This document shows, one piece after another, positions 15,942 through 20,319 of a stretch of 39,846 nucleotides of DNA. Position 1 is the stretch's first letter, and the number at the start of each line of letters is the position of its first letter. The stretch is taken from the NCBI GenBank assembly GCA_025356015.1, contig JANXYO010000076.1, forward strand, positions 1-39,846, read 5' to 3'. A program made the position numbers and the translations under genes. The DNA comes from Spirochaetaceae bacterium. Its GTDB lineage: Bacteria; Spirochaetota; Spirochaetia; Treponematales; Rectinemataceae. The notes under the pieces were generated by a model. The model was not told where the DNA came from. It ran no database searches and worked only from the letters and a program-made list of their open reading frames with translations.

Positions 15942-17471
15942 CTAGCGCGCGTATTCCACGATCCGCGTCTCCCTGATGATGGTCACCTTGATGCGGCCGG
16001 GATAGCGTAGGTCGTTCTCGATCTTCTTGGCGATGCTCTTACAGAGGTCTTTGGCCTGATCATCCGAGACCTGCTCGTTGTTCACCAGGATCCGGAGCTC
16101 GCGGCCGGCCTGGATGGCGTAGGCCTTGTCGACTCCGGAGAAGCTCTCGGCGATGTTCTCGAGGTTCTCGAGGCGCTTGATGTAGTTGTCCAGGGTCTCG
16201 CGCCGGGCTCCGGGCCGCGCCGCCGAGATGGCGTCGGCGATCTGGACCAGGACGCTCTCGATGCAGATGGGCTCCACGTCGTTGTGGTGGGAACCGACAG
16301 CGTTGATCACGCGGGGGTCCTCGCCGAGCTTGCGCACGAGCTCCATGCCTATCTCGGCGTGGTTCTGGTCTCCGTCGGTCTCGATGCCCTTGCCGATGTC
16401 GTGGAGCAGGGCGCCGCGCTTGGCGATGTCCCGGTTGACCCCGATCTCGGCCGCGAGCATGCCGGCGATCACAGCGACTTCCTTGGAATGGGCGAGCACG
16501 TTCTGGCCGTAGCTGGTCCGGTAGTGGAGCCGGCCGAGGGCCTTGATGAGCTCGGGAGCCATGTTGTGGAGGCCGAGGTCGAAGACGACCTTCTCGCCCT
16601 CTTCGTAGATCTTCTGCGTGATCTCCCTTGTGACCTTCTGGACGATCTCCTCGATCCGCGCCGGGTGGATCCGGCCGTCGGCGATGAGGCGCTCCAGTGA
16701 GACCCGGGCGATCTCCCGCCTGACCGGGTCGAAACAGGAGATGACGACAGCCTCGGGCGTGTCGTCGATGATGACATCCACTCCCGTGAGGGTCTCAAGG
16801 GTGCGGATGTTCCGGCCCTCGCGGCCGATGATCCTTCCCTTCATCTCGTCTGAGGGCAGGCTCACGGAGGTGACCGTCACCTCGGTTGTGACCTCGGTGG
16901 CGAGACGCTGGATGGTCGTGACAAGGATGTCACGCGAGCGCTTCTCGGCCGAGAGCTGGGCTTCCTGCTCGATCTTGTTGACGATGAGCTGGGCGTCGCG
17001 CCGGGCCTCGTTCTCCAGGCCCTGGATGATGAGCTTCTTCGCCTCCTCGGCAGAGAGGCCGGAGATGCGTTCGAGTTCCTGCCGATAGCGCTCTTCCTGG
17101 CCGGCCAGGAATTCCTCTTTCTCGCCAGTGGCCTTCTCCCGTGATGCGAGAGTCTGCTCCTGCTTGTCTAGGGTCGCTATCTTTTTGTCGAGTGTCTCTT
17201 CTTTCTGCTGTACCCGGCGTTCATACCTCTGGAGTTCCGCTCTGCGTTCTCGAATTTCCCGTTCTTGCTGGTTGCGTTCCCGAATGAGCTGATCTTTCGC
17301 CTCTACCAGGATCTCTTTCTTCTGAGATTCGGCCTCTTTGACCGCGTCCTGCTTAATCCGCTCCGCCTTTTGCTCGGCGGCGGCGAGTTGGAATCTGGCA
17401 TAAAGCCAGCGGATCGTCCATCCAAGGATCACACCAGTAAGAGGAAGGGCAGCAAACCATAGTGCTGTCAT
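15942..17471 (-). CDS. rny: Ribonuclease Y
   Basis: ATG 17471 follows AGGAGGGACC (509 aa, the usual length). Order: one N-terminal membrane anchor (residues about 3-25), a long charged coiled coil (QKAERIKQDAVKEAESQKKE through ERYRQELERISGLS), a KH domain with GRIIGREGRNIRTLE, and an HD domain (VLAHSKEVAVIAGMLA, then LLHDIGKGIETDG). The HD pair binds metal and performs the endonucleolytic cut. RNase Y starts mRNA decay at the membrane in many bacteria that lack RNase E. It has an exact consensus promoter, is followed by a strong terminator, then ymdB. Confidence 0.98.
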   Translation of the reverse strand: MTALWFAALPLTGVILGWTIRWLYARFQLAAAEQKAERIKQDAVKEAESQKKEILVEAKDQLIRERNQQEREIRERRAELQRYERRVQQKEETLDKKIATLDKQEQTLASREKATGEKEEFLAGQEERYRQELERISGLSAEEAKKLIIQGLENEARRDAQLIVNKIEQEAQLSAEKRSRDILVTTIQRLATEVTTEVTVTSVSLPSDEMKGRIIGREGRNIRTLETLTGVDVIIDDTPEAVVISCFDPVRREIARVSLERLIADGRIHPARIEEIVQKVTREITQKIYEEGEKVVFDLGLHNMAPELIKALGRLHYRTSYGQNVLAHSKEVAVIAGMLAAEIGVNRDIAKRGALLHDIGKGIETDGDQNHAEIGMELVRKLGEDPRVINAVGSHHNDVEPICIESVLVQIADAISAARPGARRETLDNYIKRLENLENIAESFSGVDKAYAIQAGRELRILVNNEQVSDDQAKDLCKSIAKKIENDLRYPGRIKVTIIRETRIVEYAR

Positions 17472-17505
17472 GGTCCCTCCTACTCGAACAATGCTGTAGC
17501 TTTCG

Positions 17506-17533
17506 ATTATACGAAAGGGTGCCCATTTGTCAA
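17506..17533 (-). promoter_or_regulatory. Promoter of rny (exact sigma70 consensus)
   Basis: Minus strand: TTGACA (17533-17528), 16-nt spacer, TATAAT (17511-17506), both hexamers perfect. It predicts a leader of about 30 nt before the ribosome site at the rny start. Confidence 0.85.
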
Positions 17534-17569
17534 GGTTTGTGCCAATTTCATTGTTTCAATAGAAATAGA

Positions 17570-17598
17570 TTGACGGCGAAAGTGACGCATAATATAGT
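17570..17598 (+). promoter_or_regulatory. Promoter of the RRM protein gene
   Basis: TTGACG (17570-17575), 17-nt spacer, TATAGT (17593-17598). Predicted transcription start near 17605, about 350 nt before the start codon at 17959. Confidence 0.7.
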
Positions 17599-17713
17599 CC
17601 TACTGGGATTCCGGATGGAATTCCGCGTGTTTTCGGAGGGATGAGTTCGCCATCTTCGCTTTTAAGGTAGAAAACCGGGTCCGCATCGCTGTTCCTACTC
17701 GCATGCAGCGGCC

Positions 17714-17738
17714 CACGAGCCAGGCGGCCTGGCTAGTG
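17714..17738 (+). other. Stable hairpin in the RRM-gene leader
   Basis: CAC-G-AGCCAGG, loop CGG, CCTGGCT-A-GTG: ten base pairs with one internal G/A mismatch, followed by AAAAA. It lies in the presumed untranslated leader. There is no T tract on the plus strand, so it is not a terminator for that transcript. Confidence 0.5.
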
Positions 17739-17958
17739 AAAAACCGCGGTCCTCGACTAGCAGGTAAAGAAAGAGTGTTGCTCTCTCAAGCCTCGCCCGT
17801 TTTCCTCTCCTTGAAGTCAAAAGGGATCTCTGAACGGCTCTCCAGAAAGCCGCCGTACGTCCCGCCTGTGCCTTTGGCCCGGGCTGGGGCGCGTCTGCCT
17901 TAGGCGGACGGATCCGGCTACGGAGTACCACGCTTCGGGCCTATGAGGGTTTTCTCGC

Positions 17959-18240
17959 ATGTCCAAGAAGGTTTACGTCGGCAACATGAACTACGCGACC
18001 ACTGAGAACGGCCTCCGGGACCTCTTCACCCAGTACGGAGAGGTCGTATCGGTCAACATCATCGTCGACCGCTATACTGGCAAGGCCAAGGGATTCGGGT
18101 TCGTCGAGATGAACACCGAGGAAGAGGCCCGCTCTGCCATCGAGGCGCTCAACGGGTTCGAGTACATGGGCCGGCAGCTCCGCGTCAACGAGGCAGAGGA
18201 CAAGCCGAGGCGGGACAACTTCCGCCCGAGGCAGTACTAG
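17959..18240 (+). CDS. RRM-domain RNA-binding protein
   Basis: ATG 17959 has TGAGGG upstream (93 aa). It is a single RNA recognition motif: RNP2 is VYVGNM near the N-terminus and RNP1 is KGFGFVEM about residues 50-57, with the usual beta-alpha-beta-beta-alpha-beta order and a short basic C-terminal tail ending RRDNFRPRQY. Such bacterial RRM proteins bind single-stranded RNA and in cyanobacteria are often cold-induced, controlled through long leaders. This gene also has a long leader and lies divergent to rny, hinting at RNA metabolism. A hairpin terminator follows. Confidence 0.95.
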   Translation: MSKKVYVGNMNYATTENGLRDLFTQYGEVVSVNIIVDRYTGKAKGFGFVEMNTEEEARSAIEALNGFEYMGRQLRVNEAEDKPRRDNFRPRQY

Positions 18241-18317
18241 AGCAACCAAAGGCTGTCGGGCGGCCCCTCGCAGGGTCCGTGCCGCACAACGTTGTTTCCC
18301 GCCTCACGCGGGGAACC

Positions 18318-18349
18318 GAGCCGCGCGGCCGCCGCGCGGCTCGATAATT
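18318..18349 (+). terminator. Terminator after the RRM gene
   Basis: GAGCCGCGCGG (18318-18328), 3-nt loop, CCGCGCGGCTC (18332-18342), then GATAATTT. The 11-bp GC stem is perfect; the T run is short. It lies 78 nt after the stop. Confidence 0.7.
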
Positions 18350-18372
18350 TTGGGGGCGCCTGATCAGCGGGA

Positions 18373-20319
18373 TCAGCCGCCGGAGCCCAGCCAGACCCGC
18401 ATCTCGCCACCCGGCGCCCTGTTCCCCCAGAGGTGGTAGGGCACGGCGACTATGCCCACCCGCTTGAGCCCGCGTTTCCGCGCCGCATAGGGCGGGAAGC
18501 CTTCCCCTGTCTCGGGCCAGTCATCCTCCCGCCAGCCAGGGGCCAGGATGCGCACGCAGCCGCCCATGAGCTTGGGGTCGAAACTGGCCTCGGCGGGAGC
18601 CTCGAGATCGAGGACGAAGCGCTGGAGACCCACGCCGTTGTCCAGGGATTCCACGCAATAGACGAGGGGGCCGCGCTGGATCGCGAGCTTCCCGGCGAGC
18701 TCCGAGATGCGAGGATCGGCGCGCAGCATGAGGACGGGCATCTCGAGCTCGAGTTCGACCATGTCTCCAGGCATCCAGGTCCGCCGGATGGATATGTAGC
18801 CCCTGGATATGTCGGCGGCCTCGACCTTGCTGCCGTTGATCGAGCAGGCGAAGGACCGGCACCAGCCGGGGATCCGGAGCTTGAGGGTGAGTCCGAGCTC
18901 CCGATCGGGGTCGACGAATAGGGCGATGGAGCCTGACCAGGGATAGCCGGTCCTCTGGGAAACGCGCAATCTGATCCCCGAAACAAGAGTATCGGATTCG
19001 CTCTCGGCGTAATGGTGCACCCAGAGCTCGTCACCCGAAGATCCGTAGATGTAGGAGGCCATTGAGGCGACAAGGCGGGCGATATTCGGTGGGCAGCAGG
19101 CGCAGGCGTTCCACTTGACCCTCTGGCCTTGTACGTGCTCGTGGTCCTGTCTGCACGCGATCACGCTCGGTGTGACCTCGAGGGGATTCACATAGAAGTA
19201 GCGTGTGCCGTCCAGAGAGACCCCGCTCAGGGCGCCGTTGTAGACCACTCGCTCGAAGACATCGGCGTAGCTCGAGTCTCCCTCGATCCCGGTCATGCGC
19301 GCTGCCCAGAACGCGAGGCCTATGGCGGCGCAGGTCTCGGTATAGGCCGTATCGGGGGGCAGGTCATAGTCCGAGGTGAAGCGCTCACCCTGCGCCTGGG
19401 AGCCGATCCCTCCCGTGACGTACATGCGCCGCGAAACCAGACTCTCCCAGATGAGGCGCAGAGCGCGCAGCAGGTCCTCGTCTCCGGTCGCCGCGTATTC
19501 ATCGGCCATCGCGGCATAGAGGTAGACGGCTCGCACAGAGTGCCCGGTGGCGTCGGCCTGTTCCCGCACCCTCTCGTGGTTGAGGAAGTAGTCCCGCCCG
19601 AAGGCCTTGGTAGCGGGGATGTGGAAGCCCAGCGGTTCCTTGCCGTCGAAGGAGGCCGCATCCCGCCCGCGTTCCTCCAGGAAAAAGATCGCGAGGTTCC
19701 GGTACCGCTCTTCGCCGGTGGCCGCGAAAAGACGGAACAGAGCGAGCTCAATCTCGGGATGGCCGCAGACTCCACGGATCTTGCCGCCCCCGGGGCCGAA
19801 GACCCCATCGATGCAATCGGCGTAGCGCCTTGCCACGTCGAGAAGCGTGGTCTTTCCGGTCGCCGCGTTATGCGCCACCGCAGCCTCGAAAAGATGCCCC
19901 GCGCAGTAGAGCTCGTGACCCCAGGCGAGGTCGGCCCAGCGCTTGTCGGGCCGCGCGACTATGAAATAGGTGTTGACGTAGCCGTCGGGCCGCTGGGCCT
20001 TGGCGATGAGCCTGACGACCTCGTCGACCCGGGCCTCCAGGGCGGGGTCGGGGTGGTGGGAGAGGCTGTAGCTCGCGGCCTCTATCCACTTGGCCACGTC
20101 GCTGTCCTGGAAGATGTTGCCCTTGAACTCGCCACCAGCCTCGCCGGCGGCTATCCTGAAATTCTCAACGGCGTGGGAGGGCTCGGCTCCCGGGACCTCG
20201 TCGTTGAGTGCGAGCCATTGGTGTGGGAGCATTTCCCTCGCGACCGTTTCGATCTTCCTCGACCAGAAGCCCCCCGTGATATGGGCTTCCTCCAAGGCGA
20301 GCCTTCGTATGCTGACCAT
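18373..20319 (-). CDS. GH127 beta-L-arabinofuranosidase
   Basis: ATG 20319 follows AAGGAAG (648 aa). The fold is the GH127 (alpha/alpha)6 barrel plus beta-sandwich domains. The zinc and catalytic cysteine residues of the founding enzyme HypBA1 are present at the expected spacing: YTETCAAIG gives E328 and C330, and NACACCPPN gives C408 (nucleophile) and C409, an offset of about 10 from HypBA1 E338, C340, C417 and C418. It has no signal peptide, so it works in the cytoplasm on imported arabinofuranosyl oligosaccharides, releasing L-arabinose. It is the last gene of the ABC transporter cluster, with a 97-nt gap. Confidence 0.92.
   Translation of the reverse strand: MVSIRRLALEEAHITGGFWSRKIETVAREMLPHQWLALNDEVPGAEPSHAVENFRIAAGEAGGEFKGNIFQDSDVAKWIEAASYSLSHHPDPALEARVDEVVRLIAKAQRPDGYVNTYFIVARPDKRWADLAWGHELYCAGHLFEAAVAHNAATGKTTLLDVARRYADCIDGVFGPGGGKIRGVCGHPEIELALFRLFAATGEERYRNLAIFFLEERGRDAASFDGKEPLGFHIPATKAFGRDYFLNHERVREQADATGHSVRAVYLYAAMADEYAATGDEDLLRALRLIWESLVSRRMYVTGGIGSQAQGERFTSDYDLPPDTAYTETCAAIGLAFWAARMTGIEGDSSYADVFERVVYNGALSGVSLDGTRYFYVNPLEVTPSVIACRQDHEHVQGQRVKWNACACCPPNIARLVASMASYIYGSSGDELWVHHYAESESDTLVSGIRLRVSQRTGYPWSGSIALFVDPDRELGLTLKLRIPGWCRSFACSINGSKVEAADISRGYISIRRTWMPGDMVELELEMPVLMLRADPRISELAGKLAIQRGPLVYCVESLDNGVGLQRFVLDLEAPAEASFDPKLMGGCVRILAPGWREDDWPETGEGFPPYAARKRGLKRVGIVAVPYHLWGNRAPGGEMRVWLGSGG

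Follow-up and report, generated by a model that had tools for sequence, protein, structure and literature searches.

Complementary hairpin tips suggest that the two ends of an RRM-protein mRNA pair with each other

Introduction

A gene for a small RNA-binding protein, made up of a single RRM domain, lies behind a long stretch of untranslated RNA in the window (the whole stretch of 39,846 nucleotides analysed here), and the question raised by this locus is what this RNA does. A sequence-only reading of the window had proposed that a promoter of the form TTGACG-17-TATAGT gives about 350 nt of untranslated RNA ahead of the 93-aa RRM gene, that this RNA carries two hairpins, and that it is either a responsive leader of the RRM message or a separate small RNA. 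Here we show, by comparing related genomes, support for the leader and for a hairpin in it as well as a hairpin at the 3′ end of the message. The tips of these two hairpins match base for base and show matching changes in relatives, which makes pairing between both ends of the RRM message probable.

Results

The positions of the promoter and of the RRM start codon (Table 1) give a predicted leader of about 354 nt. Both the promoter and the untranslated RNA of the sequence-only reading were borne out by the comparison, the RNA being noncoding, structured and conserved. In a pattern search, a -35/-10 pair was found 283-372 nt 5′ of the start codon in 25 of the 28 orthologous loci, the window included, with G019, G020 and G025 departing from the pattern. 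Within 16800-18900 there are two promoter-like sites compared with 0.4 in shuffles, the second of them being the promoter of rny. This rny promoter (17506-17533, minus strand) has the perfect consensus TTGACA-16-TATAAT, and the -35 boxes of the rny and RRM promoters, on opposite strands, are 36 bases apart. The RRM gene had also been described as divergent from rny, and this arrangement recurs 5′ of the RRM gene in 26 of the 28 loci, with no rny found for G012 and G026. In G026 (locus L058), no rny match was found 5′ of the RRM promoter, where the sequence is unlike that of its near relatives, and promoter and leader are retained. YmdB comes after RNase Y at the divergent side of the locus.

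Table 1. Features of the RRM locus, in coordinates of the window
Feature	Position	Strand	Basis or remark
rny (RNase Y)	15942-17471	-	divergent neighbour, outside the RNA; synteny in relatives
Promoter of sigma-70 type, TTGACG-17-TATAGT	17570-17598	+	10 of 12 matches; equivalent at similar distance in 25 of 28 loci
Structured noncoding leader	17605-17958	+	kept in relatives; no codon-position bias; covarying structure; start at about 17605 predicted
Hairpin at the extreme 5′ end of the leader	17605-17624	+	5 of 8 pairs changed on both sides
Candidate kissing hairpin of the leader	17714-17738	+	predicted fold; covariation in relatives
Candidate leader kissing heptamer, GGCGGCC	17723-17729	+	tip of hairpin 17714-17738; outer two bases on each side can self-pair
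Conserved 3′ hairpin of the leader	17892-17910	+	also before short-leader RRM genes of the sister family
Shine-Dalgarno sequence GAGGG	17945-17949	+	sequence; start codon 17959
RRM RNA-binding protein, 93 aa	17959-18240	+	Pfam RRM_1, E 8.4e-25
3′ terminator hairpin bearing the partner heptamer	18317-18343	+	one prediction: 12 pairs, 3-base loop
Candidate 3′ kissing heptamer, GGCCGCC	18327-18333	+	exact reverse complement of GGCGGCC at 17723-17729

Next to the promoter, the leader itself is kept. A blastn search with the leader in 58 genomes, that of the window included, gave matches in 10 of the 57 others (E 2.5e-9 or better, 67-82% identity), and comparison of coordinates places all ten 5′ of the RRM ortholog. 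Leaders of comparable length, preceded by a promoter of this type, are also present before other orthologs of the family and at four loci of the sister family. The window's family is represented by 30 genomes in the collection, of which 28 have an RRM match; G015 and G027, with no RRM match, and G021 and G029, with weaker RRM matches only, were left uncounted. Furthermore, a covariance model of the leader domain finds one copy each in 11 of the 194 genomes of the order and recovers G014, a genome absent from the building of the model. Across 247 genomes of the phylum, it finds only G000, G009 and a weak match in G394 (E 0.0036). Because this model misses the leaders of the other subgroup, the assignment of those leaders rests on RRM orthology, promoter and position. 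Rfam 15 at gathering score gave no match in the 39846 bases on either strand, and a permissive Rfam search of 17480-18400 gave three matches, at E 0.54 or worse.

In the genome of the window the leader is single-copy, the next best match being at E 0.149 and none convincing. Of the two readings offered earlier, the long structured leader is upheld; a separate small RNA is less likely, because the leader is single-copy and sits 5′ of the RRM gene wherever it is found by DNA match or model, and because no conserved terminator was seen inside it when the alignments were inspected by eye.

We also considered a coding function of the leader. The frame of the longest open reading frame, at 17703-17903, is mostly open in ten loci, yet shows no codon-position bias: the mean pairwise difference per codon position is 0.318, 0.320 and 0.339 (17703-17880), whereas the RRM gene has 0.068, 0.033 and 0.290. 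With a synonymous fraction of 0.276 against 0.269 expected, we rejected a leader peptide. A tRNA-Stop call by ARAGORN at 17867-17944 recurs in none of the 19 other loci and is thus a chance call.

Regarding its structure, the window's leader folds only mildly better than shuffled sequences when taken alone (z -1.83, 3 of 100 shuffles as good), and the strength of the case is conservation rather than the single-sequence fold. Among ten close leaders, the consensus structure comprises 84 pairs, and double changes are seen in 22 of these. The covariation in related genomes that the sequence-only reading had proposed as a check is present, with conserved structure and covarying hairpins. Its strong hairpin at 17714-17738 is predicted with a pair probability of 1.0 in the whole transcript, as is the 3′ hairpin of the same message, and changes on both sides are seen among the ten close leaders in 9 of the 11 pairs of its consensus, with several pairs broken in some rows. 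Its second hairpin, expected at about 17890-17908, was located at 17892-17910 and covaries in five of eight pairs over 27 loci. The consensus structure of all 27 loci retains one hairpin only, and the middle of the leader is hard to align between the two subgroups.

The tip of the strong leader hairpin, 230 nt 5′ of the start codon in the window, presents a heptamer whose exact reverse complement is found in the terminator hairpin behind the RRM gene, which reads CGAGCCGCGC-GGCCGCC-GCGCGGCTCG. This partner lies beyond 17599-17958, the region of the sequence-only observation. Folding programs draw both tips of the window as three-base loops closed by two G-C pairs within each heptamer, and seven-base kissing must therefore open these inner pairs; the 3′ loop is larger and open in many relatives. 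Over 26 loci, the pair probability falls below 0.8 for the leader hairpin in 13 and below 0.85 for the 3′ hairpin in 4. The isolated heptamer duplex has a computed energy of -12 to -15 kcal/mol, and pairing of these seven G-C-rich bases is predicted to be strong.

At least six contiguous pairs, counted over the loop and two stem bases on each side, can form in 24 of 27 loci, that is 21 of 23 in the family and 3 of 4 in the sister family, where the site was chosen by hand. Of the remaining three, G024 and G026 show a match only when a 17-base loop is chosen by hand, and were added after the automatic search had missed both, and the sister-family locus G059 has no tip match. The counts are made without G020, in which leader and 3′ region have gaps, G010, whose leader is absent, and G014, whose 3′ end is absent, and G012, which is identical to G022, was omitted from one comparison. 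Stems differ widely between relatives and the tips remain complementary: GGCGGUC with GACCGCC in G002, G012 and G022, CGCGGUCG with CGACCGCG in G005, GGCGGCCGG with CCGGCCGCC in G004, GGCGGCA with UGCCGCC in G023, and a different heptamer pair, CGACGGC/GCCGUCG, in one genus of the sister family (G032, G037, G074). Between genera, mean identity is 0.81 in the 3′ heptamer compared with 0.37 in its flanks, a count in which G004 is mis-anchored, and 0.83 in the leader heptamer compared with 0.29 in its flanks. In G019, G025 and G028, the 3′ heptamer is carried on a hairpin of its own ahead of the U-tailed terminator, and contact and termination can therefore be separate.

The variable position of the heptamer pair is paired in 21 of 21 loci, as C-G in 15, U-A in 5 and U-G in 1, with no mismatches. 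Among 280 variable columns of the leader, this position shows the strongest association with the state of the 3′ loop (Fisher test, p value = 1.8e-4, 23 loci). On a tree built without the hairpin, five changes are needed in the leader and four in the 3′ loop. A tree-aware test with four independent pairs found three going the same way, none against and one tie (p value = 0.25), a test that cannot reach 0.05 because the independent pairs are too few.

We found that over 22 distinct rows, 94.2% of the cells are paired, a level reached by none of 500 shuffles, which give 89.6%; when the two sites are slid out of register, 22-61% are paired. The covariation score of 0.159 compares with 0.100 in shuffles and was equalled by 2 of 500. 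There was no excess of further pair types over shuffles (233 of 500 as high), and the observed count of pairs with double changes was reached in 34 of 500, in a test where only three of the seven pairs can testify because four never vary. When partners were permuted between genera, the observed sum was reached in 1.2% of draws. Furthermore, when the 3′ loop is matched against the leader, the heptamer site is the sole top hit in 18 of 27 loci and ranks first or second in 26 of 27.

Discussion

We hypothesize that the RRM gene is transcribed into an mRNA with a folded leader of about 354 nt, in which a hairpin some 120 nt from the 5′ end would present GGCGGYC and a hairpin at the 3′ end the complementary GRCCGCC. 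Under this hypothesis, the tips would kiss and the mRNA would be closed, or two copies of it joined. We consider this hypothesis likely: pairing of the tips is well supported by the comparison, and the contact would most likely act by setting message stability or translation, and through it the level of the RNA-binding protein. That the contact is made in cis we infer, and for its effect on stability or translation we draw on what is reported for icaR and hbs (PMC3868564, PMC7821165). Such a contact would mark full-length messages, because the 3′ tip is made last and is present only once transcription is complete or nearly so. A more elaborate model, which we put forward tentatively, is that the terminator doubles as a dedicated kissing partner, that only finished messages close, that the closed form is translated, stored or protected, and that the RRM protein reads or opens it.

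Alternatively, the tips may pair in trans, with a processed leader or 3′ hairpin, or another copy of the mRNA, acting as an sRNA-like or dimerising system. Cis and trans pairing look alike in sequence comparison, trans RNA pairing commonly uses loop-loop contacts, and the separation of the 3′ kissing hairpin from the terminator in G019, G025 and G028 would suit such a system. We nevertheless regard pairing in trans as unlikely, given a leader that is single-copy, that lies 5′ of the RRM gene where it is found, and in which a conserved internal terminator was not seen by eye.

Next, the leader may be autoregulatory or temperature-responsive, acting through the RRM protein or the ribosome-binding site alone, with the loop match being secondary. 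In one subgroup (L043-L045, L047-L049, L052, L054 and L056-L060), 13 of 13 loci have a leader segment, UUCGGAAAGACC, that can pair over 10-14 bases with the region of the ribosome-binding site at an equivalent position. This pairing is equalled in 0-7 of 200 shuffles and is shifted onto the start codon in G011, and it is possibly an on/off switch. Moreover, the rbpB mRNA of B. thetaiotaomicron is reported to bear an RbpB site, which makes autoregulation possible there and is a precedent for it here (PMC11697453), and a candidate structured RNA named for RRM genes, Chlorobi-RRM (RF01697), has been described (PMC2864571). Putative autoregulation by the RRM protein is plausible as such. As an explanation in place of the kissing contact, however, we find it quite improbable: among the ten loci of the subgroup to which the window belongs, pairing of leader segments with the ribosome-binding site does not exceed that in shuffles (64-173 of 200 as good), so that we rejected sequestration of this site there, and the covariation favours the loop pair.

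The two sites may also be one motif, bound by a protein as DNA or RNA in opposite orientation and without base pairing, since they are reverse complements with the invariant core CGG/CCG. This is very improbable, as both sites are at or near hairpin tips in all 26 matching loci and as the series C-G, U-A and U-G consists of changes permitted by RNA pairing.

Lastly, GC-rich terminator loops may often fit GC-rich leader loops. In 199 kb of the window's own genome, 24 of 1421 hairpins of any kind match the leader loop equally well, and loop-loop matches of score 20 are found in 3 of 13 RRM paralogs, compared with 3.8% of mismatched pairs, at unrelated positions. Chance is nonetheless scarcely credible, as only 2 of 44 U-tailed hairpins in a background of 398 kb from six genomes fit the leader loop of their genome to the degree that the real partner does, against a pair in 24 of 27 orthologous loci, and as the two loops change together.

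In a scan of RRM genes from many phyla at score 20, a match was found at the site in 11 and anywhere in 13 of the 19 loci of this kind, which are largely from the same genomes as the main comparison, and anywhere in 2 of 52 other loci; 6 of the 77 loci were too short to score, among them L139, which is of this kind but truncated. Score 20 is reached by 3 of 33 further RRM genes of the order, and all three belong to the 13 paralogs from the genomes of these families. In one paralog, L170 of G013, the loop of a U-tailed terminator shows a match of nine pairs, counting G-U, with a hairpin 29 nt 5′ of the start codon; score 20 is likewise reached in L167 and L176, through 3′ hairpins without a U-tail. 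The terminator stems of paralogs L166, L168 and L170 carry ACCGCC..GGCGGT, like the kissing heptamers. In a MAG of the Spirochaetales (L087), a leader hairpin 30 nt before the RRM gene and a 3′ hairpin show an eight-base loop-loop match, ATTAAATC with GATTTAAT, which may represent another, independent instance or be due to chance.

Three RRM genes of the sister family have short leaders that can be aligned over their entire length with the final ~85 nt of the leader studied here; in these short leaders, no kissing heptamers were seen by eye. Because this 3′ element aligns with short leaders and the UUCGGAAAGACC segment is confined to one subgroup, RRM leaders look modular, with a short 3′ element, a long domain bearing the kissing hairpin, and in some a segment directed against the ribosome-binding site. 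Leaders of other types were also observed: two RRM paralogs in the window's genome (L168, L169) have a common leader, ..AAGCGAACAAAATACCTACAGTC.., unlike the one studied here, and RRM genes of another family, f5 (L154-L157, L182, L183), have long leaders of their own that are similar to one another by eye and end in GAAGGATTTTTCTC or GAAGGAATTTTCTC ahead of the start codon.

Comparison with known systems

At the level of sequence comparison, the RRM mRNA shows what a 5′-3′ UTR interaction would leave behind, namely complementary hairpin tips that covary and are predicted to pair. Under the more elaborate model, in which only finished messages close, the RRM mRNA would parallel the closed-loop mRNA of eukaryotes without the need for proteins, and selection would have kept it across genera. 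The short and defined heptamer pair, together with its natural variants, makes the closure of a bacterial mRNA directly testable and ties it to a bacterial RRM protein.

The hok mRNA is alike in that the full-length message folds its 3′ end back onto its 5′ end, and differs in being the message of a toxin gene controlled by an antisense RNA. To our knowledge, the hok fold-back is not a loop-loop contact of the kind proposed for the RRM mRNA. The Chlorobi-RRM motif, in turn, is situated upstream of RRM genes. It is a candidate structured RNA whose name points to these genes (RF01697; PMC2864571), and its covariance model gave no match over the cut-off in the 58 genomes and none in the window. 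Among the titles and abstract openings listed in searches of the open-access literature, neither this RNA nor a loop-loop 5′-3′ contact in a bacterial mRNA was described.

RNAIII/hld resembles the RRM mRNA in having a long-range contact of seven bases that joins both ends of one RNA, and is unlike it in being described as a dual-function regulatory RNA (PMC7821165). In B. subtilis hbs, 5′ and 3′ UTRs pair over 14 nt, and this pairing is reported to protect the mRNA from RNase Y (PMC7821165). The RRM mRNA shares with hbs the pairing between 5′ and 3′ ends, whereas the hbs contact is longer and, in the account given there, is not described as loop-loop (PMC7821165).

The RRM mRNA also resembles S. 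aureus icaR, whose 3′ UTR pairs over about seven bases with its own 5′ UTR and controls expression, so that in both cases the two UTRs of one mRNA would pair over about seven bases (PMC3868564, PMC7821165). The icaR pairing is directed at the Shine-Dalgarno region, whereas the RRM contact would join two hairpin tips, and we rejected control of the icaR type, the matching site being at 17723-17729 and the Shine-Dalgarno sequence at 17945-17949. Furthermore, S. epidermidis is reported to be without the icaR motif, whereas the match found here is retained across genera. RNAIII, icaR and hbs are the cases named in a 2021 review, according to which extension to other genes needs further work (PMC7821165). 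Few bacterial mRNAs with paired ends are known, and the RRM mRNA adds to them a case with comparative evidence.
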